From NCBI RefSeq assembly GCF_014633365.1, contig NC_068346.1, positions 30,732,639 through 30,796,638 on the forward strand: a stretch of 64,000 nt of DNA. The letters run 5' to 3'. Every line of letters starts with the position of its first letter. The first letter of the stretch is position 1. The translations under genes and the position numbers were made by a program. This document shows positions 1 through 34,200 of this stretch, in pieces. The notes under the pieces are model-generated. The model was not told the origin of the DNA. It worked only from the letters and a program-made list of their open reading frames with translations, and made no database searches. This DNA comes from Diospyros lotus (Eukaryota; Streptophyta; Magnoliopsida; Ericales; Ebenaceae).

Positions 1-280
1 CGATCAAGTGATATCGAAGGAAGCATTTGATAGCAATTTACTTTAACAATCTTACTTAATTTAAATTAAGAAAAGCCTTAACCAACTCAAATCATATCCA
101 AAATATATGTATTATATATCAAATCGAAACCCTCAAAGTCTAGTTTATAACGCTTCAAACAGATCTTAATTATGACTTCTACATTAAAAGTTATGACCAA
201 AATAGAAAAGCATGCGCAGTGCTAACAGAAATCGCTAAGTCAACTTAAGGAGAAAATAAGTAGACTGAGCCTAAGTCGAC
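1..280 (-). repeat. 3' LTR of the LARD-like element, part left of the Athila insertion
   Basis: Aligns with 20082-20362. Continues beyond the left edge of the window. Confidence 0.9.
276..280. repeat. Target-site duplication, left copy (tcgac)
   Basis: Five bases directly before the TG of the left LTR, matching 14035-14039 after the CA of the right LTR. The empty counterpart with a single tcgac is at 20358-20362. Confidence 0.95.
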
Positions 281-2303
281 TGGCTGCACTCCCACCCTGT
301 AATTAAAACACAAAACAAAACACAATAAAAATTTTATATATTTTTTTTTTATTTAGGTGAGAGGTTTATACTCGTCAGTGTACGAGTGCAGTTGTAGTCC
401 AAACTTAAATTTATATTTTCTGAATGAGTCCAGGTCGTCCACTGAGAGATTTATTTATGGCAAAATAAAAAGAATGTCACACAAGCATACACGCATTTGG
501 ACAAATTGGCAATAAGGTTTTTTATGGTTTTTTAAACAACAGATACTAGAAAATAAATTAAGGCAGTAATTGAAATAAATACTTTAAGTGAGAATATAAA
601 ATTGGATAGTACTTGAGTTAAGACAATTTCAGTGCCAACCCGTTGATTCCCAAATTTTAACAGATAAGGTTAGTAACATTAATTTAATTTCAGATATGAG
701 GGTTTGTTATTAAATGCAATTAGAGATTATGATAGTTCTAGTTTAAGCAATCCCCATACATGATATGTGAGATTCTAATTTAAGCAACTACCATAAATCC
801 AATTACAATTAATATACAAGACAACTAAATTAATCATCCGGGTTTGGGTATGATAGCGTTTCCAGTTCTAGTAACTCTCATGCGTGACATGAAAACTCTA
901 AGTTAGGCTTACGCTCCAATCCAAACCTAGTAATTTCTCAATAATTAAGATACATTCATACTGAAATTTAAATTAATGTTACTTATTTAAAGCGCAACTT
1001 TCTTTGGGAATCATTAGCGTTGGACACTGTTCTTGCCTTAACCTAAGATTAGATTTAGCTATTCATTTCCATTTAAAAGTTAATTGACATGAATTTAAAC
1101 GACGTAATTTAAATAACAGAATTTAAATGATAAGAATTAAAATAGCAGAAACTAACCGGCCATTTAGGCGGTGGATAATTAAAAAACAAGAATTAAAATT
1201 GCAGAAATTTAAAGGCATAAACTAACCGGCCATTTAGGCGGTGGATAATTAAATGACAAGAATTAAAATTACAGAAATTTAAAGGCATAAACTAATCGGC
1301 CATTTAGGCGGTGAATAATAAAATAATAATAAATGACATAAGAATTTAAAAGAAGAAATGAAGAAATAAGATCACAAGAGAAAAAAACTAAAGAAAATGA
1401 GAGAGAACAAAAGCAATTCTCAAAGAGAGAATTCTAGGGAAATAACTAAACTTTGATTCAAGAATAATAATCACACTTACAAATGCAATCAAGTGAGCTA
1501 TTTATAGGCCACAAGATGCAATACAAACTACACAATTTCAATTATTCAATTAGACATAATTATATCTAATGGGCACTCACACACTTAAAGTTAAATAGAT
1601 TTTAGCTATAATACACACCTAATATTAAATGGATTTTAGCTAAAATACATACCTAATAAAGCACTCATAAAGTTAAATAGATTTTAGCTATAATATCCAC
1701 CTAATAGTTAAATGAATTTTAGCTAAAAAACACACCTAATAAAACTCTCACATAAAAAATAAAAATAGATTTCTATAAATTGATTTTTTAATCTTCATTA
1801 GGATTAAAAATAATCCTTGGGCTTTCTCCAAATAATATTTTCCATGGGTTGCTCAAATTGGGCCTTAATTCTTCATGGGCTTGAATTCTTCATGGACTTT
1901 AATTTTTCATGGGTTTGATTTCTTCCTGGATTTGATTTCTTCCTGGACTTGAATTCTTCATGGACTTTAAGTCTTCATGGGCTTGAATTCTTCATGCCTA
2001 AAAAAATAATTTAATGTTATTAATAAATTATATATTATATATATGTATTACACATGGCACATATATATATTATATTATATTATATTATATATATACATTA
2101 CATGCATGCATATAATGATGTATATGTATTATATATAATTTTATATATTATTATTATTTACTTTAGAACTTCATTTCATTCATCTTTCAATTTAAAGTTG
2201 CATATAACCATAAAATATATATTAATATCTAATTTAAGCCATTTTTAAGATCCAAAGAAGGGTATAATTATAACAAAATTTTTACAAAATTAACCACTAA
2301 TCA
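281..2303 (-). repeat. 3' LTR of the Athila-lineage element
   Basis: Matches 12056-14034 along its length with scattered substitutions and small indels. It holds three copies of a 70-bp tandem unit (starts near 1151, 1221, 1291; core ccggccatttaggcgg), a 40-60 bp repeat rich in ttttagct (1590-1745), and short repeats of cttcatgg (1868-1997). The ORF called at 2054-2248 lies in AT repeats and is not a gene. Confidence 0.95.
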
Positions 2304-2316
2304 TACCCCCCAACTT
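2304..2316 (-). promoter_or_regulatory. Polypurine tract next to the 3' LTR
   Basis: On the minus strand this reads aagttggggggta and ends directly at the LTR boundary (2303), the place for plus-strand DNA priming. Two near copies occur at 3758-3772 and 6130-6144. Confidence 0.85.
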
Positions 2317-3757
2317 AAACATTGCTAGTCCCTTAGCAATCAGACTATACACATGCCAAGCTTTAATAACTGTATGAATGTAAAAATTTCAAATTCGAAA
2401 TCGAAATGCATAAAATTAAATAAATAATTTAGCATTCTAAATCAGATTTTTGGTTAAAGGTCATACAATCTCAGGAATGGAAATTAGGATAACCAACACA
2501 CAGACTAACTCCCTCGAAGTTTTGACTTCAAATCTTACTATGGATTTTCTCTCCAATAAAAAGGATTCCTCAAGTGTACACACAAGGGGATGCACCGTTA
2601 TAAGAGTAAATGCAGAACAAGTTCAAAACTCGGTGTCATCCCAAATACAAGAAACGTATTTTCATGAAAAAAAAAAAAAGGAAATTGACATAGCTTCATG
2701 ATTGGAATAATGCTCTAGATGAGTAACTTCTGAATTTAAACATGATTCCCTACTCCAAACTCGAATTCTGAGATCACATGATTTATAGCATCAAAAGGGA
2801 CCAGACTGGGTTGTAATGGGGCTATAAGGTTAATACGGGTTGTCAAAAAAAAGGTAGAGTGTGCAAAGGGTGTGTCGGGAATTTTTTTTTTTTTTTTACC
2901 ATTTATTTTGAAACAATTATACTGAATAGCTAAGAGAATTTGCCCCCCCTTTTTTTCACTCTTTTTTTTTTCTTCCTTTTTTTTCTGTTTTTTTCTTTTT
3001 CTCTTTAAATATGAAAATAGATAAACAGACTAATTCCCAAAATCACACCAGGTTGGATAAAATTCATATGGTTATAGGTTAAACGAGGGTAACGAAAGAA
3101 ATTATACTACAAATGGCTCAAATGGGATAGCAAATGAGGTTAATGTAAAGAAAGAAAAAAAAGTTAATAGGCCCAAAATGAAAGAAATTGATCCCTCTAT
3201 CATACTTCTACAAAACGATGTTACTCAGTCATCTAATTCAGAGTTTGAAACCAATTAAACTTATCCGCTATCATACTAGACATTCAAAGCAAATTGATGT
3301 TTTGAAACCATTGAAAAGATAAGATAAACAATAAAGCATATTGAGAGTAAGTGTTATTTCACTTAGAATTAACGGTTATTAGGCTCAAACACTCACTTGG
3401 GTAATAGTCTCCACTTCTGTTGAGGGATCATACAGTGTACTAATCAGCTAATTACTGTTACCTTTGACTTTATGACCGATAACCAATTTTTAAATTTTAA
3501 ATCCCTGATGAATGTAAATTACTTATTCTAATGCATATACGTTTTCAAATAAGAAATCAATGCATTCATATTTCATATTGCAAACTTAACCGGCCATCAG
3601 TGCATAACTTCAAAGCTTTAGGAATAGCATTATTTAAAACACATATTTTTTTTTTTAAATAAGAGCAGATAAAGATAATCAATTCACACAAGACTATAAA
3701 CTAGCAATAGCAAACTCACAGTTAAATATGAACCAGATAATTCATAACTAGACCTTA

Positions 3758-3772
3758 CACCCCCCAACTTGA
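3758..3772 (-). promoter_or_regulatory. Second polypurine-tract-like site
   Basis: The minus strand reads ttcaagttggggggtg, almost the tract at 2304-2316, but no LTR follows. It lies between the LOG-like ORF and the true 3' tract. It may be a relic of an earlier element end or a duplicated tract. Confidence 0.6.
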
Positions 3773-3934
3773 ATTGTAGTAATAAATTAGGATTGTTAGG
3801 AATACCTGTAACTCCACAAGTCCATTTTGCTGTGAACTGCTAAAACTTAAACAACAAATGAGCATACTATATAGATATATATTTATATTTTCACACCAAA
3901 ATAAAAATTTCATGCAAGTCATAAGATAAGCAAA

Positions 3935-3979
3935 ATGCGTCTCAAGAGTACAAAAAGTACTCCTTACTCAGCCATCTTA
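3935..3979 (-). repeat. 45-bp perfect direct repeat with hairpin, copy 1
   Basis: Identical over 45 bp to 4070-4114. The unit contains the inverted repeat gagtac-aaaaa-gtactc, which would fold as a 6-bp stem with a 5-nt loop. A diverged third copy is at 5104-5165. Confidence 0.9.
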
Positions 3980-4069
3980 TCAAAGACTTTGCCCAACAAC
4001 ATTCCACAGTTTTTTTTTTTTTTTTAAGAACACAACCAAGAAAAATCCTGCAAGTTGTACAATAACTAG

Positions 4070-4114
4070 ATGCGTCTCAAGAGTACAAAAAGTACTCCTT
4101 ACTCAGCCATCTTA
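4070..4114 (-). repeat. 45-bp perfect direct repeat with hairpin, copy 2
   Basis: Same 45 bp as 3935-3979. On the minus strand it lies just beyond the LOG-like stop codon (4129), so it would be the proximal 3' UTR of a LOG transcript. Confidence 0.9.
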
Positions 4115-4128
4115 ATAAAGAGCATTTC

Positions 4129-4788
4129 TCATAGTGATAAATCTAAATTAATCGGACCCCTTTGGCGCTTGTTACTAATTGCCTTAAACCAGTCTATCCG
4201 AGGCTCATGAGGATCGTACTGTGGAACATAAGCGTGTAATTTCTCTAGCAGCTTATCAATGGTGGATGCAGAAATGAGAATCTTTCTTGCTGAACGAGAA
4301 ATGAACTGTTGGTCCACAGCCTGATCAAGAAAAGAGAGTAACCCATCAAAAAAATGGTTAACATTTAAAAGTCCAATGGGTTTGGTATGGAGATTACTCT
4401 TGGCCCAGGAGATTATACAAAAGATTTCTTCAAGTGTTCCAAAACCTCCTGGTAAAGCAATGAAGGCATCTGACTGATAAATCTTACAAGCCATGCGCTC
4501 AGACATAGAAGTCGTTTCTATAAGTTGACCGCGTGTAATCCCAGAAATATGTGGTTCAGCTAAAGGGATTGGCATTACACCTACCACGGATGAATTTCCA
4601 AGATGTACAACTTGTGAAACATAACCATTCAATCCACGACTTTCCCCTCCATATACCAAATTAATTTTTTTCTCTCCTAATTTTTTACCAAGTTCGCTCG
4701 CTGCAAGTGCATAACAAATATTGCTCCCAAGTTGAGAGCCACAAAGTACACATATGGTATTGATTCGACGAACTAACTGGCCTTCCAT
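4129..4788 (-). CDS. LOG: LOG-like protein (cytokinin riboside 5'-monophosphate phosphoribohydrolase family) carried by the retrotransposon
   Basis: Uninterrupted 219-aa ORF with ATG start, close to the usual LOG length (about 210-230 aa). LOG enzymes release free cytokinin bases from their nucleoside monophosphates in the cytosol. Visible family marks: CVLCGS (13-18), NLVYGGES (43-50), SMSER with Arg98, and PGGFGTLEE (113-121) with Glu121, followed by an ISWA...KPIGLLNV block typical of the family. Arg98 and Glu121, described as catalytic in plant LOGs, are kept. The residue after Arg98 is Met instead of Lys, and the glycine motif reads GGES instead of GGGS, so activity is uncertain. The C-terminus is LDLSL, an LxLxL pattern. 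Plant LOG genes have several introns and this copy has none, so it was probably captured from RNA. It has the same orientation as gag-pol. Confidence 0.92.
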   Translation of the reverse strand: MEGQLVRRINTICVLCGSQLGSNICYALAASELGKKLGEKKINLVYGGESRGLNGYVSQVVHLGNSSVVGVMPIPLAEPHISGITRGQLIETTSMSERMACKIYQSDAFIALPGGFGTLEEIFCIISWAKSNLHTKPIGLLNVNHFFDGLLSFLDQAVDQQFISRSARKILISASTIDKLLEKLHAYVPQYDPHEPRIDWFKAISNKRQRGPINLDLSL

Positions 4789-4955
4789 GTTTGTTCCTTT
4801 TGTATGTCCTGAAAAGAAGTTTGGCGATCAAAAGTAGCTATACAACAATTCAACAAGAAATAAATACAAACAAAAATCATGCGTATGTATAAGTAGTTGT
4901 GATTGTGGCTCACATCTTCCTCTGGTTTTACGTCCAGAAACGGCTTAAACACTTT

Positions 4956-5510
4956 CTATGAAGCGGGGATAAGCTTCCCATCCAATTTTCTTATAGATTG
5001 GCAAACAGGGTCGTTTTTAGTCAGATTCCCAAGACTATAGCATTGGTGGTCACTTCTGAACTGGGTCCATAAAGCAAGAGGTTCTCTTTGCACTATTCCA
5101 CATGGATGCGTCTCAAGAGTCAATCGGATATTATCCAAAGACTCTTTACTCAGTCCATCCTTTATGAAACTAATTTTATCTTCTCGATTTATGGACGTAA
5201 ACCCCACAGATTTGCATCGTGTGTTACAGGTCCATCGAGCACCTTTGTAACAACCATTCACTCTTTTCGCTCTTCTTTTCTTCGCAAAACTACTCTTCCC
5301 TAAGCTTGGAAAATGCTTAAAACTAGGTGAAGTTTCACCAGCTAATCGAACTTTTGCTTCGATTAGCCAACGAATATCTTCAAGGATGTTATTACGCATC
5401 AACAGCCAAAGTCTTTCACACCTAGCAGCATAAATTTTTTTCAAATCATTCTGCGAGAGAGATGGATAGTACTTGTGAATTTTTGAGAGATAAAGATCCT
5501 TTTTTTTTTT
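4956..5510 (-). CDS. Uncharacterised ORF of at least 162 aa upstream of the LOG-like ORF
   Basis: Open frame ending at a stop at 4956-4958. The frame stays open upstream of 5444 to about 5510 without a clear ATG, and a 3' splice-site-like run (tctctctcgcag on the minus strand) precedes 5451, so the real start may be spliced. The product is basic and cysteine-bearing (KKRRAKR, CNTRCKS) and matches no family I recognise. It lies 167 bp upstream of the LOG-like start in the same orientation. A third, diverged copy of the hairpin motif found twice beyond the LOG stop falls inside it (5104-5165). It may be a second captured fragment, an env-like remnant or a chance ORF. Confidence 0.45.
   Translation of the reverse strand, partial: KKKKDLYLSKIHKYYPSLSQNDLKKIYAARCERLWLLMRNNILEDIRWLIEAKVRLAGETSPSFKHFPSLGKSSFAKKRRAKRVNGCYKGARWTCNTRCKSVGFTSINREDKISFIKDGLSKESLDNIRLTLETHPCGIVQREPLALWTQFRSDHQCYSLGNLTKNDPVCQSIRKLDGKLIPAS
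5104..5165 (-). repeat. Diverged third copy of the hairpin repeat inside the 162-aa ORF
   Basis: Shares atgcgtctcaagagt and tttactcag...ccatc with the 45-bp repeats. Its arms aagagtc and gactctt also pair, with a longer loop. On the minus strand it encodes part of the 162-aa ORF (around LSKESL), and the other two copies read WLSKEY in the equivalent frame before a stop, which suggests partial duplications of this segment. Confidence 0.6.
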
Positions 5511-5639
5511 AAAAAAAAAAAAATTATACTAAGAAGAAAGTAAAGAACTATAAACTTTACAAAAGGGATGAGAGTACCTGATCGGAGAATAACACAAAGG
5601 AGAGAAGATTGAGCTCAAGAGGGGTGACTTGCCTCATAC

Positions 5640-5840
5640 AGATATGGAGTCTCTTATAGAGCAATGGGCATCACTATTCTACACTCGACTCGAGGCATGC
5701 CATAATTGCACCATCAGGCTTGGCGTCTCTTTTTTTTTTTTTTCAACGCTTGGTGCCTCATTTTTCAACATTTGGCAGTGTGCCTTATCCTTTATAGGGC
5801 AGTGTGATTGCACTGCCCAAGAAAAGATGGCTACCACCAA
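5640..5840 (-). promoter_or_regulatory. Possible promoter of the cargo ORFs
   Basis: On the minus strand, TATA-like stretches occur near 5795 (ctataaagg, directly after the inverted repeat gggcagtg...cactgccc) and near 5655 (ctctataagag). A good 5' splice-site match (atcag then gtactc) lies near 5577 and a 3' splice-site-like tctcgcag near 5451. The layout would suit a captured gene with its own promoter and a leader intron. This rests on motif reading only. Confidence 0.3.
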
Positions 5841-5901
5841 CGTCAATTCTGTCTCTCTTAATTCAAATTTTTTTTATTTTTTTATTTTTATTTTTTTATG
5901 A

Positions 5902-5964
5902 TTATTATTATTTTTTTCTTGTTTAGTTTTTTAATTTTTTTTATTCTTATTCTTATTATTTTAT

Positions 5965-5995
<31 letters not shown>

Positions 5996-6426
5996 GATTT
6001 TTTTTTAATAAATATTTTGTTTTAGGGGCCCAATAAAATCATACACACCACACAAGACAATATTATCGAGTCTAACAAAATTATTTGCACAATGGATCAA
6101 TTTCAAACACCAATAAATCAAGTTCACCTTACCCCCCAACTTAAATTACGCATTGTCCTCAATCGGCAATAAAAGGATGGAAGATAGGCATACCTGGTGG
6201 TCTTCAATGCATGAACTCGTATGCAAAAAATTTTATTTAGACTGTACACAGAGAAACACTATTTGAATCAAAGTTAATTAAGTAATGCAGAAAATGAACA
6301 ACTTATATATATACTTCTTTATTATTTTATTTTTTTTATTTTTTTTTTCAAATCTATAAACATCCATTTAACCTAAATAGAAATGTGGTCTTTTAACGTC
6401 AGATTCCTAGACGACATAAACTACCT
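5902..6426. other. AT-rich spacer between cargo and integrase
   Basis: T-rich simple sequence (5868-6010) and the third polypurine-like site (6130). No coding signal. Confidence 0.5.
6130..6144 (-). promoter_or_regulatory. Third polypurine-tract-like site, just after integrase
   Basis: The minus strand reads atttaagttggggggtaa, preceded by a gaggacaatg stretch resembling the sequence before the 3' tract of simpler Athila relatives (from memory). It lies about 290 bp downstream of the integrase ORF end, where the 3' LTR would begin if the extra 4 kb were absent. Confidence 0.6.
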
Positions 6427-9400
6427 TTATTCATCAGATGATGGTGGATCATCCAAATCCACAACTCCTTCATTCTCCTCAACACTACCCTGGTATGGTT
6501 TCAACCTATGACTATTGACTGTTAGAAGCTGTCCTGACTCCGGATTTTCTATCTCAAATGCCCCATATCCTGGGATGGACTTGATTACAAAAGGGCCGAC
6601 CCATCGAGACTTCAATTTTCCTGGGAATAGATGCAATCGAGAATCATACAAGAGTACCCGTTGCCCTACCTGAAAGCTTTTTTTAATGATGTGCCGATCA
6701 TGTAACTCTTTCATGCGAACCTTGGCCAATCGTGCATTTTCAAATGCTTCATTCTGAATTTCCTCAAGTTCATTCAATTGGAGCTTCCTGGATAAGCCTA
6801 CTTCAGTTAGACTCTTGTTGATCTTATGAATTGCCCAATATGCTTTATGCTCAATTTCCACTGGCAGATGACAAGATTTACCGTATACTAGCCTATAGGG
6901 AGACATTCCCAAAATTGTTTTGTAAGCTGTTCTGTATGCCCAAAGAGCATCTACTAGTCTTAAGGACCAATCCTTACGATTAGCAGCAACAGTCTTTTCC
7001 AATATGCGCTTAATCTCCCTATTAGCTAGCTCGGCTTAACCATTGGTTTGGGGATGGTATGGTGTTGCAACCTTATGCAGTACACCATATTTCTTCATTA
7101 ATCCTGCCACAACTTTATTACAAAAATGGGAACCCCCATCACTGATGATTGCTCATGGCATCCCAAATCGACTGAATATGTTTTCTTTCAAAAATTTCAT
7201 GACAGTCCTATGGTCATTTATTCTGGCCGGGATTGCTTCTACCCATTTGGACACATAGTCAACAGCAAGTAAGATGTATTCATGACCAAATGAATTGACA
7301 AATGGGCCCATAAAATCCATACCCCAATAGTCAAAAACTTCTAACACTTGGATCGGATGTAATGGCATCATGTTTCTCCTTGACAGACTTCCTAACCTTT
7401 GACATCGATCGCAATTTGAACAGAACTTGTACACATCCTTGAACAGTGTCGGCCAATAAAATCCACTCTAAAAATTTTTTGCAACTGTTTTCTTGACAGA
7501 AAAATGGCCTCCACATGCAAGAGTATGACTAAAATTGATGACACTTTGTTGCTCATGATCGGGTATGCATCTACGGATGATTTGGTCAGGACAATACTTG
7601 AAGAGGTAGGGCTCATCCCAAAAGAAGGTTCTGACTTTTCTGAAGAATTTATGCCTATCTTGCTTACTCCAATGGTCTGGGATCAGACCAGTTGCCAGGT
7701 AGTTCGCAATGTCAGTATACCAAGGGACAACAGATGATGCACGAATAACATTCACTTCAAACAGTTGCTCCTCAGGGAAATTGTCATAAATTGGTTCATC
7801 AAATTGTGTGAGATCTTGACTTGGAATCCTTGACAAATGGTCAGCCACCATATTTTCTACTCCCTTCTTGTCTTTGATTTCAATGTTGAACTCTTGCAGG
7901 AGTAAGATCCATCGGAGCAGACGTGGTTTTGCATCTTGCTTTGTGAACAAATACTTCAAAGCAGCGTGATCAGTAAAAATGATCACTAGTGACCCTACGA
8001 GGTAAGATCGGAACTTGTCCAGGGCAAAGACAACTGCCAGTAACTCTTTCTCTATAGTGGTGTAATTCTTTTGTGCCTCATTAAGAGTTTTGCTAGCATA
8101 ATATATCACATGAGGTTTCTTATCCTTCCTCTGCCCTAACACAGCTCCTACCGCGTAATCACTAGCATCGCACATAAGTTCAAACGGGAGGGACCAATTA
8201 GGGGAATGAATGATAGGTGCTGAAATGAGTGCATCTTTCAATTTATCAAAAGCATTTTGACAGGCAAGACTCCATTCAAACGGAACATCTTGAGACAACA
8301 AATGGCATAAGGGTCTTGTTATGGTGCTAAAGGAAGCAATGAATCTCTTATAAAACCCTGCATGTCCCAAAAAACTTCTGATGTCTTTCACATTCCTAGG
8401 GATGGGGAGTTTTTGAATTATTTCAATTTTTGACCTGTCTACCTCCATCCCCCTAGATGAAACGATGTGCCCCAAGACTATGCCCTGTTTCACCATGAAG
8501 TGACATTTTTCCCAATTGAGTATCAGATTTGTTTCCTCACATCTTGCTAAAACCTTTTTCAGATTCTCCAAACAGGCCTCAAAGTTATTTCCACAAACAG
8601 AAAAGTCATCCATAAATACTTCAACAATCTGCTCAACCATTTCACTAAAAATGCTCATCATACATCTTTGAAAGGTGGCTGGAGCATTGCATAACCCAAA
8701 TGGCATGCGCTTGTATGCAAATGTCCCGAATGGACATGTGAAAGTTGTCTTCTCCTGATTTTCTAGTGCAATTTCTATCTGATTGTACCCTGAGTACCCA
8801 TCTAAGAAACAATAGTAGGCTTGGCCTGCTATTCTCTCCAGAACTTGATCCAAGAAAGGCAAAGGAAAATGATCTTTCCTTGTCACAGAATTGAGCTTTC
8901 TATAATCAATGCACATACGCCATCCTGTCTGGATGCGCGTGGGAATCAGTTCATTGTTCTCATTTTTTACAACAGTGACTCCAGACTTTTTGGGTACTAC
9001 CTGTGTTGGACTTACCTACTTAGAATCAGAGATTGGGTAAATTATTTCAGCATCCAATAGCTTAAGCACTTCTTTTCTGACAACTTCTTTCATGTTGGGA
9101 TTTAATCTCCTTTGCATTTGCCTAACTGGTTTTGCTCCTTCTTCCAAGAATATCTTATGAGTACAGATCAAAGGGCTAATACCTTGCAAATCTGAAATGG
9201 TCCATCCTAATGACTTCCTGTGTGCTTTTAGAACTTCTATCAGTTGTTGCTCTTGCTGAGGTGTCAAACTTGAAGAGATCACCACTGGGAATGCTTTCCC
9301 TTCTCCTAGAAAGACATAATTCAAATCACTGGGCAATGGCTTTCTCTTAGGCGTGGACTGATGGCTATCAGGAGCCATAAGCTTACTGTTCAAGTTCCTT

Positions 9401-10137
9401 AATGGCTCTAAACCAGGCATCCATGTAGGCTTCTCACTTTCTTTGCCTATGACTTCCACTTCTTTTATTTTTTCAAGATCTTGATTTCCTTCTTTGGGTC
9501 TTCTCATGAACTCTTCAAAATAGTCATTGGTCAGTGTTTGGATCAAGTCTACCTCCTCCACTTCACTCTCAGTGTCCTGATGTTTGGCTACCCTGAAGAT
9601 ATTCATTTCTACAGTCATGTTCCCAAAAGATAGCTTTAACACACCATTTCTACAGTTGATGATGGCATTTGATGTGGCAAGGAATGGTCGACCTAAGATG
9701 ACTGGCACAGGAGGTTGAGGCCCCTGATGCGGCTGGGTGTCCAAAACGATGAAGTCCACTAGAAAGTAGAACTTATCGATTTGTACCAGAACATCCTCCA
9801 CAATTCCTCGTGGAACTTTGACTGATCGATCAGCCAGCTGAAGGGTCAGTCTAGTGGGTTTAAGCTCACCTAATCCCAACTGTTGATACACACTGTATGG
9901 CAACAAATTGACACTAGCTCCTAAATCCAAGAGTGCCCGATCAACCTTTTGACTTCCTATGATGCATGTAATGGTTGGACAGCATGGGTTTTTGTATTTG
10001 GGAGGAGTTTTCAATTGGAGAATGGCGCTGACTTGTTCAGTCAGGAATGCCTTTTCATGCACATTTGTTTTTCTTTTGACAGTGCACAGATTTTTCAAAA
10101 ATTTTGCATATGAAGGTGTTTGTTTGATTGCATCCAA
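6427..10137 (-). pseudogene. pol: pol of the Athila-lineage element: PR-RT-RNase H-integrase (broken)
   Basis: All parts lie in one frame on the minus strand. Protease: DLGASVNLLP (residues 71-80 of the piece starting at 10137). Reverse transcriptase: the piece from 8916 with MPFGLCNAPATF and catalytic FMDD near 8610. RNase H: FELMCDASDYA, then FTDHAALKYL. Integrase: HHCC zinc finger spanning about 7520-7380, [16 protein letters not shown] near 7130, HPQTNG near 7045, and a C-terminal region to a natural stop at 6427. Four in-frame stops interrupt it: TAG 9016-9018, TAG 7468-7470, TGA 7153-7155, TAA 7036-7038. The order PR-RT-RH-IN defines Ty3/gypsy. Confidence 0.95.
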
Positions 10138-10217
10138 CAGCGGATGTTGATTCTCACTTGCTTAAATACTTCATATATATCTGCATTTTGTTGCTCTTTT
10201 TTCAAATGATTCAACCT

Positions 10218-11927
10218 TTATGGAAAAGGTGGTTTGGGCCTGTATTGAATTTCTTTCTTATCTTCTTTTTGTTTTTCATTTTTCTTATTTTTTTTTTCAT
10301 TTTTTTCATTTTTTTCATTTTTCTCCACGGTGGATTCATGATCTTTTGGTTCTTTTTCTTCATCAACATGTTGGTTTATCCTATGATCAGTTGGTTTCTC
10401 AATTATTCTTCCACTTCTTAGGGCAGTCACTGCTTGCACTTGTTCATGAGTGTTGGTTTCACTATTTGAAGCTTCTACCTGGTTGGTTTGCCTAATTGGG
10501 TTAGGATTAGTTTGGGATGGAAACCTTCCGGGTTCTCTCACACTCAATGTTTGTGTTATCTTGGTCAACTGGCTCCTAATGTCTTCTATGGCTCTGTTTG
10601 TTTGGTCTTGATTTTTGACAAGTTGAGCAACTTGATTGTTGATACCTGTTTGACTTTGGATGAACTGGTGCAAGGTATCTTCCAAAGATCTTCTATGAGG
10701 AGGTTGGTAAGTATTGGATGAAGAACCTTGATTTTGTTGGAAGGTGTGTTGTTGTGTAGGGAAGGGAGGTTGAGAATGATTTCCAGAATCATTTCTCCAA
10801 GAAAAATTGGGGTGATTTCTATTATTGGGATGGTATGAATTGTAGTTGTGATTATTCCCATAATAGGCTCCACTCTGATTTTGATTTTGTCTCCCCTCAA
10901 AGTTGTGTGAATGATTGTTATTAGTCTGCCCATACAATACCTCCTTGAAAGCAGGTAGGGTAGGACATTCTTCAGTTGAATGATCTGTTGCATCACACAC
11001 AGCACACTTTACTTCCACTTGATTAACAGATTGCACCTTTTTGGGTTGCATGTTTTCAACTTTCTTTGTTAAAGCAGTTAGTCTTGCATTTAAATCGTCA
11101 CTCTCACTCAGTTGGTATCGCCCTCTAGGTTGTGGATTTTCTCTTGAATCAAGAGCAGATGTTGGACCAACTTCTCAGTTCCTTGTATTCTCAGCCAATG
11201 TGTCAAAGAAGTTGAAAGTTTCTTCTGGAGTCTTCTCATAGAATTCTCCATTGCACATTGTAGAAACTAGCATTTTCAATTGGGGAGTGAGTGAATCATG
11301 AAAGAAACTAACCACTCTCCATTGCTCAAAAGCATGGTGCGGACAAGTGTGAAGAAGGTCTTTAAACCTTTCCCATGCTTGAGCAAAATTCTCATTTGGT
11401 TTACAAGCAAAGTTCATGATTTGTCTTTGAAGAGTAGCAGTTCTGTTGGCAGGGAAGTATTTTTTTAAGAAAGTTGTTTGCATTTCTCTCCAAGTTCCTA
11501 TAGATCTAGGTGGGAGAGTGCTTAACCATATTTTTGCCTTATCTTTCAGTGAGAATGGAAAGAGTTTTAATCTTATGACATCCTCATTTGCTGTATGGTC
11601 CATGCAAGTGCTACATACTTCCTCAAATTCTTTCATATGAGTATATGGATTTACAGAATCCATGCCATGAAAAGTTGGCAACAATTGGATTGTGCCAGGT
11701 TTGAAGTTAAACCTATGATGGTTGATGGGAAGAATAATGCATGAGGGGGTTGTCTGCCTAGGAGGATGAAGATACTCCCTAAGGGGTCTGATCATACCCT
11801 GATCAATGGGATCAGGGTCACCGTGATCACTACCATGTGCAGACATGTTGTGTGCAAGTGGCATGTTCTCATTGTGTTGAGACATGAGTGATTGATATTC
11901 TATAGTTTTACCTGACCTAAGTGTCAT
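10218..11927 (-). pseudogene. gag: gag of the Athila-lineage element (broken)
   Basis: Encodes the capsid-like part of the polyprotein. The first 250 codons (11175-11927) open with MTLRSGK, common in Athila gag proteins, and hold a retrotransposon gag domain around residues 90-200 (WLSTLPP, FLKKYFP). A TGA at 11175-11177 stops this part; the same frame resumes and reaches a CCHC zinc knuckle (CAVCDATDHSTEEC, near 11000) and a Gln/Asn-rich, then Lys/Glu-rich tail. A TAA at 10218-10220 and a one-base deletion near 10140 separate gag from pol. Upstream of the deletion the gag frame already reads into pol-like sequence, so gag and pol were probably one ORF. Confidence 0.9.
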
Positions 11928-12033
11928 ACACTATGCACAAATAAAAATAAAGTAAAAAGAAACAGAGTTACCGAATTTATCAGGAGATGCCTTTTCTTAT
12001 ATATTTTTTTTCTTTTTGTTTTTGCCTCAATCT

Positions 12034-12050
12034 CCCCGGCAACGGCGCCA
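12034..12050 (-). promoter_or_regulatory. Primer binding site, tRNA-Asp type
   Basis: The plus-strand sequence ccccggcaacggcgcca equals the last 17 nt of plant tRNA-Asp including CCA. It lies five bases inside the 5' LTR (12056), as expected for minus-strand priming of an Athila-type element. Confidence 0.93.
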
Positions 12051-12055
12051 AAATT

Positions 12056-14034
12056 TGGCTGCACTCCCACCCTGCAATTAAAACACAAAACAAAACACAA
12101 TAAAAATTTTATATTTTTTTCTTTATTTAGGTGAGAGGTTTATACTCGTCAGTGTACGAGTGCAGTTGTAGTCCAAACTTAAATTTATATTTTCTGAATG
12201 AGTTCAGGTCGTCCACTGAGAGATTTATTTATGGAAAAATAAAAAGAATGTCACACAAGCACACACGCATTTGGACAAATTGGCAACAAGGTTTATTATA
12301 GTTTTTTAAACAACAGATACTAGGAAATAAATTAAGGCAGTAATTGAAATAAATACTTTAAGTGAGAATATAAAATTGGATAGTACTTGAGTTAAGATAA
12401 TTTCAGTGCCAACCCGTTGATTCCCAAATTTTAACAGATAAGTTAGTAACATTAATTTAATTTCAGATATGAGGGTTTGTTATTAAATGCAATTAGAGAT
12501 TATGATAGTTCTAGTTTAAGCAATCCCCATACATGATATGTGAGATTCTAATTTAAGCAACTACCATAAATCCAATTACAATTAATATACAAGACAACTA
12601 AATTAATCATCCGGGTTTGGGTATGATAGCGTTTCCAGTTCTAGTAACTCTCATGCGTGACATGAAAGCTCTAAGTTAGGCTTACGCTCCAATCCAAACC
12701 TAGTGATTTCTCAATAATTAAGATACACTCATACTGAAATTTAAATTAATATTACTTATTTAAAGCGCAACTTTCTTTGGAAATCATTGGCGTTGGACAC
12801 TGTCCTTGCCTTAGTCCAAGATTAGATTCAGCTACTCATTTCCATTTAAAAGTTAATTGACATGAATTTAAACGACGTAATTTAAATAACAGAATTTAAA
12901 TGATAAGAATTAAAATAGCAGAAACTAACCGGCCATTTAGGCGGTGGATAATTAAAAGACAAGAATTAAAATTACAGAAATTTAAAGGCATAAATTAACC
13001 GGCCATTTAGGCGGTGGATAATTAAATGACAAGAATTAAAATTACAGAAATTTAAAGGCATAAACTAACCGACCATTTAGGCGGTGAATAATAAAGTAAT
13101 AATAAATGACATAAGAATTTAAAAGAAGAAATGAAGAAATAAGATCACAAGAGAAAAAAACTAAAGAAAATGAGAGAGAACAAAAGCAATTCTCAAAGAG
13201 AGAATTCTAAGGAAATAACTAAACTTTGATTCAAGAATAATAATCACACTTACAAATGCAATCAAGTGAGCTATTTATAGGCCACAAGATGCAATACAAA
13301 CCACACAATTTCAATTATTCAATTAGACATAATTATATCTAATGGGCACTCACACACTTAAAGTTAAATGAATTTTAGCTATAATACACACCTAATATTA
13401 AATGGATTTTAGCTAAAATACATACCTAATAAAGCACTCATAAAGTTAAATGGATTTTAGCTAAAAAACACACCTAATAAAACTCTCGCATAAAAAATAA
13501 AAATAGATTTCTATAAATTGATTTTTTAATCTTCATTAGGATTAAAAATAATCCTTGGGCTTTCTCCAAATAATATCTTCCATGGGTTGCTCAAATTGGG
13601 CCTTAATTCTTCATGGGCTTGAATTCTTCATGGACTTTAATTTTTCATGGGCTTGATTTCTTCATGGGTTTGATTTCTTCATGGACTTGAATTCTTCATG
13701 GACTTTAAGTCTTCATGGGCTTGAATTCTTCATGTCTAAAAAAATAATTTAATGTTATTAATAAATTATATATTATATATATGTATTACACATGACACAT
13801 ATATATATTATATTATATTATATATATATTACATGCACGCATATAATGATGTAGATGTATTATATATAATTTTATATATTATTATTATTTACTTTAGAAC
13901 TTCATTTCATTCATCTTTCAATTTAAAGTTGCATATAACCATAAAATATATATTAACATCTAATTTAAGCCATTTTTAAGATCAAAAGAAGGGTATAATT
14001 ATAACAAAATTTTTATAAAATTAACCACTAATCA
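12056..14034 (-). repeat. 5' LTR of the Athila-lineage element
   Basis: The partner of 281-2303, 44 bp shorter, mainly by one fewer ttttagct repeat near 13440. It retains the 70-bp tandem units (starts near 12923, 12993, 13063). On the minus strand this is the promoter-bearing LTR, upstream of the primer site and gag. Confidence 0.95.
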
Positions 14035-14039
14035 TCGAC
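14035..14039. repeat. Target-site duplication, right copy (tcgac)
   Basis: Directly follows the right LTR and pairs with 276-280. Beyond it the host sequence resumes, aligned with 20363 onward. Confidence 0.95.
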
Positions 14040-15170
14040 TTAAGGGAAAAATAAGTTGACTTATCTGAGAACAAGGAGAAAAATGACTGCAACAACAAGC
14101 CTCTGCATAGTCGACTTATCCCATAAATGAGTCGACTCGACGCAACCAAAAACATACCAACTGTATACCAAACACACCAAAACCCCCTCATCTAGCTTTC
14201 TAACCCACAAATACCACTCCATGAACAAAAAATGGGGTGAAATATACCCCATGGAGACTTTTAAAGAGACCCCAAACCATCTCAAATAGAAAACTCACAA
14301 GCTAAGACATTTATACAACATTTGCAACCAAATGAGAGAAGTCATTTTACCGAAAATGATTTCAACACAATGGAAAAGACAACATCTTGCACCAAATGGA
14401 AAAAGAGAGCAAAAGAAACTTGCACAAAATAAAATTTAAGTGTAAGTAGAACTTGCCTTGATTAAGCTTGAACTGAAAGAAAAGAAAAGCCTTCCAATGA
14501 AGCTGAATTCCTCACTCTTTGAAGCTCCAATTTAAGAAGAAGAAAAAGATGATGATGATGATGGATTAGTCGTCTGGAGAAGGAGAAGAAGAATGAGGAA
14601 GAAAATAAATGAAGAGAAGACAAGAGTATGGGGAGAAAAGGGGAAGAGTGGGCTGCCAACCACCCTTTTGGGGAAAATTACCATTTTGCCCTCTACTCAC
14701 ACACAGAACACAAAATATCCTCATGCCCCTTATAGTCATTTTGCATTTTCTTATTTCTTTCTCATTTTCATTATCAAACCAATTATGTAAATCTCATTTT
14801 TTTCCCACCTTTATTCATAAAGCATGCCCATTTTTAACGTTTGCCATTTTCCTTTCTTTCTTTCTTTTTTCCCATTTATTTCACTCAATCCACTTAAATA
14901 TATGGGCTCAAGCCCATTCACTAGCCCAATTCAAAGTGGCCCATTTCCATCATAGGCCCCAATGAAAATCATTCTCATTTATTAAAATACAACCTACTAA
15001 TACATGGGCTTAGGCCCAAATAGGCAATCCAATCCATTAAATTAAACAATTTACTTACATAAATTTTGCCACATAAAAATATTTTCCACATTTAATTTAA
15101 TAGGGCAAAATTTTCAATTCCCATAAATAAAATATAAATAAACTCCTAGACCCACTAACGGGTCATTACA
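14040..15170 (-). repeat. 3' LTR of the LARD-like element, part right of the Athila insertion
   Basis: Aligns with 20363-21474, ending attaca where the partner ends gttaca. Together with 1-280 this is the copy into which the Athila element inserted. It holds a (gat)n run near 14550 and is otherwise non-coding. Confidence 0.9.
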
Positions 15171-15185
15171 GTTTCTCCCCCCTTC
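15171..15185 (-). promoter_or_regulatory. Polypurine tract of the LARD-like element
   Basis: The minus strand reads gaaggggggagaaac and ends exactly at the LTR start (15170). Confidence 0.85.
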
Positions 15186-18459: not shown

Positions 18460-21400
18460 TGTTAGGGCCTGCTCCTAGATTTTTCTACTAACATAGGAAG
18501 TTCGAGAGAAAGTCTATTCAAGATAAATACATATACAAATCACTCAAGAATTACAAAAAAGAATCTTTTCATTTCCATATTTGTTCACTAACAATAGGAG
18601 CCATAATAAGTATTATACACATTCATTATATCATCATCTAGGTCTTACCACCCATATATTTTTAAAATAAAAGGGCATCAAGACTTTAAATACAAAATGA
18701 AACCCTCTAGTCATGCCCTCAAACTACACCCATGGATCTTTGAGGCCGGGACATCTCTGTACACATCTAACCAGAACTCACCCCCAAAACAACCTTTTCC
18801 TTTTCCTAGAATGACAAAAGAAGCAAAGTGAGCCATAAGGCCCAGCAAGTATATAGCAAAGGGAAACAACAACAAGCTCAATATACGAAGGCATGCATAA
18901 CATGGAGCCAAGGAAAAATCACTACCCGACACTAAACCTCACTTGAATTCATGCCTTCTACGCTTGACAACATCATCCCCCAAGAAAATATAATTTATTA
19001 CATTTCATCAAAACACATTTTTCAAAGTGAGCCATGAGGCTCGACAAGCGTATAAAAACAACGAAAATTAAATTTGACCAGACTTTCCCTGAACACCACT
19101 CATATCATGCCACATACGAAACACACGCCAATCTCATATGCATAAATGACACACAATCCATGCTATGTGGTTATATAAATATCCAGCCTACCCTGAATAC
19201 AAACCTACCAGTAACCCAGAAAGGCAACCAAATCAACCACATGAGCCCAAGGCTCTCGTACCACATCCATAGATGTCATATCCATCACTGGCGTCATCAT
19301 GTGTGACAGCACCCACAATCTCATCAAGGTCACAAGCTGCTATGAGCCTCCACCCACAGTCTTACGCATCACAAGATCTAGCTATTGTGGGCCTCCACCC
19401 ACAGTCTTACGCATCACATGATCTAGCTGCTGTGAGCCTCTACCCACAGTCTTACGCATCACAATCACAAGTCAACTTTCACTACCATTACCACCATGCA
19501 ATGCAGCATATAAGGAATGCAATGGCTCTTGCAGCATTAACGTGATGGCAAGGCCCCCATAAGCCAAACATCAGGCCATGCTACACCCACGTAGGAATTC
19601 ACACACACAAATGCTCTAATGCATATGCTCGCCTAACATACACAAGTTAACACTCACAGGCCAACTATGTCATGCCAATGCTCACGCTCCCATCACATAC
19701 AAAGTACGACCCCCCAATGAATGCAACTCGTGACCCATCATCATAATGCAAGATAGAATAGCATACAATGCCATGCAACACAACCACAACAATGCTATGA
19801 CAAGTGACATTCACATATCCTCAATTTTGCCCATTAAAGCTCTCGGCTCTTTCACAATTCACATTTAAATAGGTTTCACCACATCAATTAAGGGAAATTA
19901 TTTATATGATGATAGCAATGCATCATACATGAGATGCTATGGACATGCCAATCATGAACATTTCTTAACAACTTACCAAATGATTATCATCATGCTTCCT
20001 CATGCAACTCACTTATGTTATTATCACATGAACCCATGTATGTACATATAGGTATCTTTAACCACATTTTATCATTTTAGAGGATCAAGTGATATCGGAG
20101 GAAGTATTTAATAGCAATTTACTTTAACAATCTTACTTGATTTAGATTAAGAAAAGCCTTAACCAACTCAAATCATATAAAAAGTATATGATATTATATA
20201 TCAAATCGAATCTCTCGAAGTCTAGTTTATAACACTTCAAATGGACATCAATTCTAACTTCTACATAGAAAGTTATAACCAAAATAGCGAAGCATGCGCA
20301 ATGTTGACAGAAATTGCTAAGTCGACTTAAGGAGAAAAAAAGTAGACTGAGACTAAGTCGACTTAAGGGAAAAATAAGTTGACTTATCTGAGAACAAGGA
20401 GAAAACTGACTGCAAAGACAACCCTCTGTCGAGTCAACTTATCCCATAAATGAGTTGACTCGACGCACCCAAAAACATACAAAATGAATACCAAACACAC
20501 CGAAACCCCCTCTCATCTAGCTTCCTAACCCACAAATACCATTCCATGAACAAAAAATGGGGTGAAATATACCCCATGGAGACTTTCAAAGAGACCTCAA
20601 ACCATCTCAAATGGAAAACCCACAAGCTAAGAAATTAATACAACATTTACAACCAAAGGAGAGAAACCATTTTATCGAAAACGATTTCAATACAATGGAG
20701 AAGACAACATTTTGCATCAAATGGAAAAAGAGAGGAAAATAAACTTGCACAAAATAAAATTTGAAGTGCAAGTAGAACTTTCCTTGATTAAGCTTGAACC
20801 GAAAGAAAAGAAAAGCCTTCCGATGAAACTAAATTCCTCACTGTTTGAAGCTCCAATTTAAGAAGAAGAAGATGATGATGATGAAGCAGTCGTCAGGAGT
20901 TGAAGAAGAAGAATGAGGAAGAAAATAAATGAAGAAAAGTTAAGAGTACGGGAACAAAAGGGGAAGAGTGGGCTACTAACCACCCCATTGGGGAAAATTA
21001 CCATTTTACCCTCTACTCACACAAAACACAAAATATCTTCATGCCCCTTATGGTCATTTTGTATTTTCTTATTTCTTTCTCATTTTCATTATCAAACTAA
21101 TTATGCAAATCTCCTTTTTGCCCTCATCTTTATTCATAAAGCATGCCCATTTTTGACATTTGTCATTTTTCTTTCTTTTTTTTTTCCATTTATTTCACTT
21201 AATCCACTTAAATATATGGGCTCAAGCCCACTCACTAGACCAATTCAAAGTGGTCCATTTCCATCATAGGCCCCAATCAAAATCATTCTCATTTATTAAA
21301 ATACAACCTACTAATACATGGGCTTAGGCCCAAATAGGTAATCCAATCCATTAAATTAAACATATAAATTTTGCCACATAAAAATATTTTTCACATTTAA

Positions 21401-21474
21401 TTTAATAGGAAAAATTTTCAATTCCCATAAATAAAATATTAATAAACTTTTAGACCCACTAACGGGTCGTTACA
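18460..21474 (-). repeat. 5' LTR of the LARD-like gypsy element (3015 bp)
   Basis: Plus-strand ends are tgttaggg (18460) and gttaca (21474), i.e. TG...CA form. It contains three 45-bp tandem copies (starts 19344, 19389, 19434; core ccacagtcttacgcatcac) and a pocket of gtcgac-type motifs near 20330-20470. The overlapping short ORFs are not coding. The portion from 20082 on also occurs at 1-280 and 14040-15170. Confidence 0.9.
19344..19472. repeat. 45-bp tandem repeat, three copies
   Basis: Starts at 19344, 19389 and 19434 with the shared core cacagtcttacgcatcac. Located within the LTR of the LARD-like element; the corresponding part of the other LTR is outside the window. Confidence 0.85.
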
Positions 21475-22145
21475 GTTGATGTTAAGTTATATAGAAGCAT
21501 GATTGGATCCTTACTATATTTAACCACAAGTAGGCTAGACATCATTTTTAGTGTTCGCTTGTATGTTAGATTTCAATCCAATCCTGAGGAATCTTGTCTC
21601 AAGGTTGTCAAAAGAATCTTTAGGTTTTTTAAATCATCTTCTAGTCTTGAGTTATATTATCGAAAACAAATAAGCTAAATTTAATTGAATATATAGATGT
21701 TGATTATGATGGATGCAAAATTGATAGAAAGAGCATTAGTGGGTCATGCCAATTTTTAAGTGGTTCTTTAGTGTCTTGGTCTAGTAGGAAACAAAATATT
21801 GTTTCACTTTTTTCTACTAAAGCTGAATACATAGTGGCTGGAAGTTGTTGTGCACAAATTATTTGGATGAAACATCAATTGGAAGATTTTGGCATAAGAC
21901 TTAGCAGTATTCCTATCAAGTGTGACAATACGAGTGCAATAGCCTTAGTAAAAACTCTCGTATTCCATGCAAGAACAAAACAAATTGAGGTGAAACGTCA
22001 TTTTATTAGAGATCGTGTCTAAAAAGAGGACATCAAACTTGAATTCATAGACACAAATCATCAAATAGTCAATATTTTCACAAAACTATTAGATAAGAAC
22101 AAATTTGAATTCTTTAGGAGCGAACTAGGGATGATTGCTTCTTGA
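21475..22145 (+). pseudogene. pol: Copia reverse transcriptase C-terminus and RNase H
   Basis: Begins VDVKLYRSMIGSLLYLTTSR, the standard copia block after the reverse transcriptase. The ORF 21771-22022 carries SWSSRKQNIVSL, EAEY-like KAEYIVAGSCCAQIIWMK and KCDNTSAIAL, the copia RNase H signature. The frame is lost between about 21650 and 21770, and a TAA at 22021 interrupts the end, whose natural stop is at 22143-22145. It is decayed. It starts at the LARD-like insertion point, so the pol N-terminus is missing here. Confidence 0.88.
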
Positions 22146-31200: not shown

Positions 31201-34200
31201 ATATTTATATCCATAGCAATCCATGTCTTAGTTCATATGATGCACTTGAACAAATTTAACACTTTGGCATGGTGCCCAGACCTGTAGAGATTGAGGATGG
31301 GAAAATGCTAGTCACCAGTATGAAGCCAATGGGAGTTATGGGGCTGAAGAGACTGAAGAAGTCTAGAGGAGGATAGTGACAATCCAATCAAAGGTCAGAT
31401 AGCTCTCTGTTGACCTGTTTACCTATTTATGGGTGACATAATACCAAGAAATTCAAGTCTGGGTAGTTGTGACTTGCAACATGACATCCCATGGAATTCG
31501 TGATACATTTGAAGGCACACCGGGGAATTTGAGATGCAATCAGCTAAAGGTTACAAAACGCCACATGGCAGAACTGGTCTCCACAGGAAACCTCCTAGAT
31601 GCCCAAGGTTTCTCTCTCGAACTCATCATGGGTGAGTATCTTGCGAGAGGATGACACCTGTGATGAGCACCAAACCAAAAAACACTCAGCAACCACAAAA
31701 GGAAGTTACTTTAACCTCTCCTCAGGATTCAAGGGTCAGAAGTTACTTGAATCACTTATTAACTTAGCTGAGCAACTGACTCCCTTAGCCAGGAGTAGCT
31801 GCTGAAGTTCTACAGCTGAGTGAGTGGGTAAAGGTCACGTGTTCAAACTTAAACCATGGCAAAATGTAACCATTTGTTGCAGCTAAACTATATCTTGCTC
31901 TGTTTTTGGTAATGCATTACACCAATTTCAAGATTTACACCAGTGAAGTGTATAACCACCTAGCAGGGTCGCACTAAATTTTTTTCTTCTCATGCAAAAG
32001 TCAACTCTCTTCTAGTTCAGCTGTCAACAAGCTTCGAAACACCACTCTTCTGTACAACCACTAGCACTGCACCACTATTCCTTCCTATCACTAAATATTA
32101 TCTGTTGATTCTATAGCTAGTTATTTAAAAATTCATATAAAGAATTCAATGGTTCAACATTTGAAAATGAGTGAAAACTGGAAAAGCAAAGTGCATTTCA
32201 CCCATCATCCAAAGATATCTTGTGGAACTGATTGTCTACCCCTAGGACACATATATGCTGTGTTGGAAGTTGGAGTTGAAGCTCTAGAACAAAGAAAGCA
32301 CGTAAATAAGCAACTGAAGCTACAACAAATGATATTTCCAAAAAGAAAAGGTAAATGGTGAAGTACTGAAGTGTAAAAGATAATATATGTTTAAAGGCAA
32401 ATAATCTCACTATAACACCCTGACCAAATTACCAATGACCTAAAGCAGATAATAGTTCATATATAAACATATATATATATAGAAAATCAAATATCAAGAA
32501 TGATCATAATGTCCCACCTCATACTTCAAGAATCCTTCAAGAACATCCAAAAGCAAAGGGCCACTATCTCCATTCCTGTTAAGATCATATCCATTATTGC
32601 TACTAAATTCTTTTAACTCAGCTTTCCAGAAATCCTTTTGCTGCAGAAGATATTAAAAAAGAATATCTCAATACCAAAAAACTAAAAGGTGACTAGAATG
32701 ATTAACACCACTCAGAAGAACATGTACCAAATTACACTCTGGCAGATAAACTTTTAGTGTGTGGCTTAATTGTGCCCAGTCCAGGTATTCACACACCAGG
32801 GCAGTTAGAAGTCTTCCTGCAATTAAGACAAACCAGTGGAAGACAGGAAATGATAGAGAAAACATGGTTATAAATAGTCGTAAGGCAAAACAAAAGTATG
32901 CTGATAGTTAAATAATTCTGAGACCAATAGTAAATCTCACTTATGAACAAGGTACTTTGGGCCAGAAGGAAATCAATATGAGATCGTGTTTTGCAAGGTT
33001 TTAGCTTCTTTCTTTTTTTTTGTGTGTGTGTGTGTCGGGGTTGGGGTGCTTGTGCTTTGGTTTGGAAGAGAGGGACGGGGGGGGGGGGGGCGCTTGGTGC
33101 CCGGTGCCCCTGAGGTTTAGACAAAATGCAAGCAATACCACTGAGGTTCTGAAATAATAATGACCTCCCTTGATTGGGCAAACCTTGTTGTAATTGAACC
33201 CCTGTTGTTAATTTATGGCCGTTAAAAGACTTTTTTATAAGAGCACTTTAATTCCTATTTATAATAACAAATAACATGTTTAAAGTTGTGAAAGTTGTAG
33301 AGTGATCAAGCTAATGAGCCAACTATGAAACTTTATGAGAGGATAGTTGAGCAAACGTTAAGGAGACAAACCAAGGTCTATCAAAACTAATTTGGTTTTA
33401 TGTTTGATAGGTCAACAATGAAAACTATCTACTTGCTGAGATGCCTAATGAAAAGGTCCAAAGGTAAACAAAAAGATTAGCAAATGATTGTCACGAACCT
33501 AGGGTTCGTGATAGGTTAAAGAGGAATTGGGGAATGAAATCAGAATTGTAGGAGGGGGAAATGGGGCAGAAATGGGGGGAAGAAATCAGTAGAAAGGGTG
33601 AGAGTAATAGAGAGAAATGTAGAGAGGAAATCAGAGATTCAATATTAATTTCAGTATCCCCTCTCTTCTTACAATGGGCCTTTTTATAGGCCTTAGCTAG
33701 CTCCCTAACTAATTTCTAACAGCACCCATGTGCTCCTAACAAACACCCAAATATCTCCTAACAAACTAATATAACTAATTACATTATTGCCCTTCTAATT
33801 ACCCTTAGTACATGACAATTTCCCCTCCTTGAAATGTTTCTTGTCCCCAAGAAACTTATTACCACCTAGCCATTGCTTCTTTATCCAATGCCCGCCTTCT
33901 CTATCTGATTTTTCTTTCTTTCTTTTCTTGTCCTTCTAGGCCTTTTCTTCTTCCTCGTTCTCAAGTATCCAAGATCAATCCTTGTCGTAATTCGGCCTAG
34001 AAGTTCAATAGGAGCAAGTTGATAGAGTTCAATTTCAATACCAGCAACAATTGTTCCTACACCTCCATGGTGCACCACAGGTGCAAATTGAAAGATATCA
34101 TCAGCATCCTTGAAATGCAGCAATGGAAGATTGCAGATTTGCCTTGGACACTCATACCAAGGCTGCTTGTGAGCATTAGCCTTAGGAGCTGGTGCAACTT

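Follow-up and report, generated by a model that had tools for sequence, protein, structure and literature searches.

Why does a LOG-family gene lie inside a plant LTR retrotransposon? We analysed a 64,000-nucleotide stretch (here called the window) of contig NC_068346.1 of the Diospyros lotus genome, for which the original prediction proposed that an Athila-lineage element carries a captured LOG gene as inherited cargo and that its product would make active cytokinin.

The open reading frame (ORF) in question (4129..4788, minus strand) is intron-less, runs from ATG to stop and encodes 219 amino acids. It matches PF03641 (E 2e-32), PF18306 (E 2.8e-10) and TIGR00730 (141.8 bits, cutoff 96.35) and contains the PGGxGTxxE motif. 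Its nearest solved relative, by sequence as well as by fold, is Arabidopsis LOG3 (2a33): the predicted model, with a mean pLDDT of 87.7, aligns to this structure in Foldseek with a target TM of 0.96 and 47% identity. When the bases of the stretch were shuffled 5000 times, the frame never stayed open, which together with the Pfam matches rules out a chance ORF. The LOG-family ORF is thus real and uninterrupted, as predicted. Under simulated neutral drift since insertion, the ORF is still open in 2431 of 3000 runs, so a single open copy is silent on selection.

The ORF sits within an LTR retrotransposon of 13,754 bp (281..14034, minus strand). This element is delimited by a 5′ LTR of 1979 bp (12056..14034, minus strand) and a 3′ LTR of 2023 bp (281..2303, minus strand), both with TG...CA ends, and by a perfect 5-bp target site duplication, TCGAC, on both flanks (276..280 and 14035..14039). 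The junction sequences contain a polypurine tract adjoining the 3′ LTR (2304..2318, minus strand) and a stretch like a primer binding site, TGGCGCCGTTGCCGGGGA (12033..12050, minus strand), which we take to resemble the 3′ end of tRNA-Asp. The two LTRs differ by a K2P distance of 0.0243 (41 transitions and 6 transversions over 1979 columns), presumably corresponding to an age of ~0.9 to 1.7 million years under the two rates that we assume. The insertion is nested in the LTR of another element (2-280 and 14035-15173), whose partner LTR at 20083-21477 is ~90% alike.

All coding regions of the element are on the minus strand. They comprise gag (11175..11927; Retrotrans_gag, PF03732, E 1.4e-20), a second gag ORF (10218..11051), an aspartic protease with the start of the reverse transcriptase (RT) (9016..10137; PF13650, E 2.6e-6), the RT with a single RNase H (7468..8916; PF00078, PF17917 and PF17919) and an integrase with two premature stop codons (6427..7467; PF00665, E 5.6e-14, and PF17921, the stops being read as X). 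The second gag ORF is nucleocapsid-like by its position and by a Cys-rich stretch seen by eye; it matches no Pfam family at E 0.01 and gives a weak zinc-knuckle match (E 0.23). As originally described, LOG is located between the integrase and the 3′ LTR, on the same strand as gag, protease, RT-RNase H and integrase.

Two LTRs, a target site duplication, gag, RT, RNase H and then integrase identify a Ty3/gypsy element. The only RNase H stretch found with Pfam is in the RT ORF, and none is found in the integrase stretch. An additional RNase H (aRH) is described as the mark of the Tat lineage (PMC6317226), so its absence fits Athila rather than Tat. The Athila ORF-1 domain PF03078 is absent from the Pfam matches of seven ORFs; it is not a required feature, and just 16% of Athila elements are reported to have it (PMC6317226). 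Gene content without an aRH fits the Athila-type assignment and upholds the lineage named in the original prediction.

The LOG ORF is not the only accessory gene. Upstream of it, with 167 nt between the stop of the one and the start of the other, we found an ORF for a zinc-finger protein like the nucleic-acid-binding proteins (NABP) of carlaviruses (4956..5498, minus strand; PF05515, Viral_NABP, 29.2 bits, cutoff 23). Against PF01623 (Carla_C4) the window protein scores 16.3 bits, under the cutoff of 20.9. Among 40 relatives, 36 match PF05515 and 36 match PF01623 at E 0.01 or better; the relatives match these viral families only modestly, with a best E of 1.2e-8. In an alignment of 120 relatives, the finger C-x2-C-x4-C-x3-C is kept in 110 to 119. 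The window copy has one finger Cys replaced by Gly and no ATG at the start used by the relatives. Because this Cys is present in 43 of the 44 copies in which the motif was found (window counted), its loss is private decay of the window copy. The predicted structure is a poor model (mean pLDDT 57.5), and a search of a plasmid collection returned no NABP match. Downstream of LOG, two 52-nt copies (3935-3986 and 4070-4121) resemble a stretch internal to NABP from which an inner segment is missing (local score 50; the highest of 500 shuffles scored 36.5) and are perhaps small duplications of NABP. The original prediction was silent on the NABP-like ORF, as it was on the pol-less derivative described below.

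NABP and LOG are found together across the genome. Searching the 630-Mb assembly of the same genome with LOG gave 1129 first-look candidates, and the 150 that were scored all have 95-100% identity; the NABP search gave 950 first-look candidates, of which 150 were likewise scored. NABP is present on the same strand in all 48 LOG-selected copies (window included), with one exact spacing in 45 of them. Conversely, LOG is present in 39 of 40 NABP-selected copies. In the lone copy without LOG (L194) the likeness to the element merely stops before LOG, and none of the 40 shows the clean scar of an empty copy. Many copies at one NABP spacing rule out LOG as a one-off insertion, and the proposal of inherited cargo is borne out.

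Outside Diospyros, we infer linkage from gene models and from contigs of equal size. Gene models join NABP to LOG in Orobanche (P0167 and P0219), integrase to NABP in Rhamnella (P0199) and LOG to a gag/protease piece in Xanthoceras (P0005 and P0006, two of the three examined). The LOG and NABP match lists have four contigs of equal size in common compared to 0.22 expected, in a comparison that covers the 84 of 120 LOG rows and 77 of 120 NABP rows that were typed. Single clusters at 90% identity, one of 566 NABP sequences (P0146) and one of 327 LOG sequences (P0058, from Pterospermum), suggest that other plants also have many copies. Four IMG/VR scans were empty, and another returned 24 loci, none above 47% identity and most of them matched over short stretches.

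Where does the LOG gene come from? A 39-row tree separates three groups: 19 element-type LOGs (support 100/99), 13 host LOGs (98/88) and 7 bacterial LOGs. A 69-row tree concurs, with an SH-aLRT of 99 for 41 element-type rows. The 7 to 9 bacterial LOGs included fall away from the element LOGs, which join the plant LOGs, and this rules out a bacterial origin or contamination. The host LOGs in these trees are mostly LOG1/LOG3-like, with two LOG8-like rows. This phylogeny, the route suggested for finding the donor, thereby resolves one element clade beside the sampled host LOGs, but given the limited host sampling it does not settle the precise donor gene.

The window LOG retains Arg99, Glu122 and the PGGxGTxxE motif, while H97, K100 and E125 (CgLOG numbering) are replaced by Ser, Met and Cys. 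The latter three residues are proposed to form the prenyl pocket and are reported to be identical in CgLOG, AtLOG3, OsLOG and CpLOG (PMC4979012). Among 111 element-type LOGs, which are the nearest matches to a derived-pocket query and are assumed to be element-borne as a clade, not row by row, T119 is kept in 111, E122 in 109 and R99 in 108, compared to 31 for H97, 10 for K100 and 9 for E125. K100 and E125 are both kept in 9 of the 111. All three pocket residues are invariant in 108 of 108 host LOGs. The 111 rows derive from 120 listed rows after removal of P0005-P0007 (doubled models), P0118 (a Taxus host-type LOG) and five rows outside 190-260 aa; the host rows are the best-scoring matches to a LOG3/LOG8/Taxus profile, of which the 108 of 116 within 200-260 aa were used. 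Because the patterns used to retrieve the bacterial LOGs include positions H97 and K100 but not E125, the H97 and K100 columns say little for bacterial LOGs.

In the 39-row tree, five of these nine rows with both Lys and Glu branch first, before a 14-row group (98/84) that has neither. Some of the rows that keep Lys and Glu are Xanthoceras proteins, and P0005 and P0006 have the same Arg-Lys motif. The simplest reading of this branching order would be that LOG was acquired first and the pocket changed later. A close descendant of the ancestral-pocket type was sought in this genome and rejected: the 150 scored matches to P0031 have only 50-52% identity. The NCBI equivalog NF058542 is uninformative as a substrate test, since the host LOGs P0344 (131 bits) and P0305 (116 bits) fall below its cutoff of 300 bits just as the window LOG does (86.5 bits). 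Annotation calls for caution as well, as the D. lotus gene set labels such a copy (P0001) 'cytokinin riboside 5′-monophosphate phosphoribohydrolase LOGL10'.

The cassette also occurs without pol. Twelve copies were read with 8.6-8.8 kb of context, seven LOG-selected and five NABP-selected, which is a non-random sample. Ten of the twelve have an LTR on either side of NABP and LOG with no RT or integrase between, and the other two have RT and integrase as in the window element. Finer mapping of four of the ten pol-less copies confirmed the absence of RT and integrase. The LTR-to-LTR period of these copies is 7.3 to 7.7 kb; given LTRs of ~2 kb, a whole pol-less element would be ~9.4 kb. In nine of the ten, the LTR pieces are 99.4-100% identical (95-98% in L199), and this near-identity shows that the pol-less form has been mobile recently.

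The first ORF of the pol-less form (~416 aa) aligns to the second gag ORF of the window element (42% identity, E 1.7e-54) and also to the start of the first gag ORF (E 4e-8). It has no Retrotrans_gag match up to E 0.5, and a CCHC pattern is seen by eye. Accordingly, this ORF is gag-derived, with no recognisable capsid. All three ORFs (gag-derived, NABP and LOG) are full length in four of the ten pol-less copies. In genome G000, head-to-tail ladders of pol-less-type units, with two to four LOGs at 7.2-7.5 kb spacing, occur at C14:18448121-18471026, C11:16479278-16494645, C10:29875577-29883534 and C3:5055990-5064028. These ladders fit LTR-to-LTR arrays.

Shared LOG variants among the Diospyros copies show purifying selection. 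Identical copies were merged and out-of-register copies dropped, which reduces 87 LOG copies to 70 distinct sequences. Across all 70, N/S is 0.87 for singletons and 0.25 for shared variants (Fisher p = 3e-5), with the proviso that LOG-selected copies are ranked by protein similarity, lowering their N/S. In the NABP-selected set, which serves as the control (28 distinct sequences), the values are 0.77 and 0.29 (p = 0.004). The neutral expectation, based on the LTR mutation spectrum, is 0.61-0.65. NABP has the same trend, which is not significant (0.58 for singletons, 0.34 for shared variants, p = 0.14). Between pol-less and RT-bearing copies, the dN/dS of LOG is 0.16-0.23, with seven of the ten pol-less copies in register.

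Of 90 distinct places (duplicates of one place taken out by hand), 22 have a broken LOG. Some of the lesions are common to 2 to 5 separate places, and three pol-less copies with shared lesions have LTR pieces that are 99.6-100% alike. Lesions shared among places indicate that LOG-defective copies still spread and therefore that LOG is not strictly needed in cis.

Taken together, we consider it likely that NABP followed by LOG forms an accessory cassette passed down within an Athila-type retrotransposon lineage. LOG would have been acquired once with its phosphoribohydrolase chemistry kept, and its base or side-chain preference would then have been altered in the main branch of the clade. Given that the catalytic columns have been retained and the side-chain pocket has changed, the protein is presumably still a phosphoribohydrolase. 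In the main branch it probably acts on something other than a cytokinin ribotide, or on more than that. By analogy with its viral relatives, NABP may bind nucleic acids and modulate silencing or transcription; one such relative, p12 of chrysanthemum virus B, is reported to activate transcription in the nucleus and to suppress silencing in the cytoplasm (PMC7588395). Both proteins could render the host cell more permissive. NABP may have passed between virus and retrotransposon in either direction.

The pol-less form may take protease, RT and integrase from full elements and still make the accessory proteins; TR-GAG elements are likewise described as served in trans by full elements (PMC8704663). 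Pol-less copies would then be the main source of NABP and LOG, or else these proteins would favour the RNA or the cell of their making. As a tentative extension, to which we give less than even confidence, an asterid and rosid Athila-type lineage would carry a two-protein host-manipulation cassette, composed of a zinc finger of RNA-virus type and a LOG with its pocket rebuilt for a different nucleotide. The pol-less form (capsid-less Gag, NABP and LOG) would be a satellite that trades accessory functions for the replication enzymes of full elements.

Other explanations account for part of these data. Dividing cells benefit retrotransposons, and an element LOG that still activated cytokinin would, through free cytokinin, drive host cell division and offer a better setting for replication. 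The LOG fold, the catalytic Arg and Glu and PGGxGTxxE are all retained as this would require, and nine of the 111 clade members keep the ancestral pocket (Lys and Glu). However, the window protein has S, M and C at the pocket positions, most of the clade differs there as well, and every host LOG keeps the pocket; moreover, replacing the AMP-binding residues by alanine is reported to leave CgLOG nearly inactive (PMC4979012). We regard this explanation as unlikely, and cytokinin activation by the element LOG, given the changed prenyl pocket, appears doubtful. The claim of active cytokinin is unsupported as originally worded: although the catalytic residues remain, the window protein and most of the clade have replaced two prenyl-pocket residues that do not vary among 108 host LOGs. 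A LOG acting in nucleotide metabolism or on an immune signal would instead clear a nucleotide that either interferes with reverse transcription or serves as a defence signal, in a logic akin to that of retroviral dUTPase or of viral enzymes that destroy defence signals. Conservation of the hydrolase core alongside remodelling of the base pocket is consistent with such a role, the relatives of the LOG fold include the general nucleotide nucleosidase PpnN, and the NABP partner resembles viral counter-defence proteins. The argument is nonetheless one of analogy, and the literature matches listed held nothing relevant on LOG and TIR signalling; a role of this kind is possible, though we would not expect it.

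Finally, LOG and NABP might be passengers, captured sequence that is copied along without benefit. Frame-broken LOGs have indeed been copied, and drift alone is expected to leave a young ORF open. Against this, shared LOG variants have an N/S of 0.25-0.29, below both singletons and the neutral expectation, the catalytic columns are invariant across deep divergence where other columns vary, and the pol-less form dropped pol and retained NABP and LOG. These observations disfavour passengers, which we hold to be improbable, and we return to the inherited accessory cassette.

The original prediction left it undecided whether this family had been described. Athila-like elements with similarity to LOGL4 are reportedly mentioned in the abstract of Steinbauerova et al. 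2011. A LOG (YgdH) domain is in print for Gypsy elements of Citrus sinensis, C. clementina and Populus trichocarpa, in a paper that cites that study (PMC9289625). These elements share with ours a LOG-family extra domain in a plant Ty3/gypsy element. The section of that paper that reports them does not name the NABP partner, the pocket change, the single clade or the pol-less derivative (PMC9289625), which our analysis adds. Likewise, no report of a retrotransposon with an NABP-type partner was found among the open-access literature matches listed. With the minimum of 250 codons that Neumann et al. 2019 set for scoring extra ORFs (PMC6317226), NABP and LOG would both be passed over. The LOG domain as such is thus already known from Gypsy elements, whereas the NABP partner, the remodelled-pocket clade, the pol-less form with NABP and LOG, and the purifying selection on LOG look new.

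Comparison with known systems places the cassette further. Plant LOGs (AtLOG3 and AtLOG8) have the same fold, catalytic Arg and Glu and PGGxGTxxE, but the element LOGs form a separate clade with the prenyl pocket changed in most members. With the Cys-rich proteins of carlaviruses and the Viral_NABP family, such as chrysanthemum virus B p12 (PMC7588395), the element NABP shares PF05515, PF01623 and a basic stretch followed by a four-Cys finger. It differs in being retrotransposon-borne and longer (181-182 aa in most relatives among the matches listed), and its function is predicted. Non-autonomous TR-GAG elements resemble the pol-less form in their LTRs, a gag-type ORF, lack of pol and recent mobility (PMC8704663), whereas the pol-less ORF lacks a Retrotrans_gag match and NABP and LOG are kept as further conserved ORFs. 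An orchid Ty3/gypsy element with an RNA demethylase domain is similar in its acquired extra enzyme with a parallel in RNA viruses (AlkB); the enzyme and partner are different, and the orchid enzyme has been assayed while the element LOG is known from sequence (PMC9289625).

Extra ORFs are common in plant retrotransposons, and few have a known role. In this cassette an enzyme can be recognised and its active site is conserved, selection can be measured, the partner is of viral type, and there is a natural deletion form in which pol is gone and both genes are kept. Together, these features make the role of accessory genes in a plant retroelement directly testable.

Elsewhere in the window, a direct repeat of 333 bp (33487-33819 and 36503-36835, 98.8% alike) surrounds 2.7 kb that include a 507-aa antisense ORF (33881-35404) with no Pfam match; this arrangement is possibly a small unclassified LTR-type element. 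A reverse-transcriptase fragment, LINE-like by eye, is found outside the LTR element at 38780-39739 (PF00078, E 8.5e-11).
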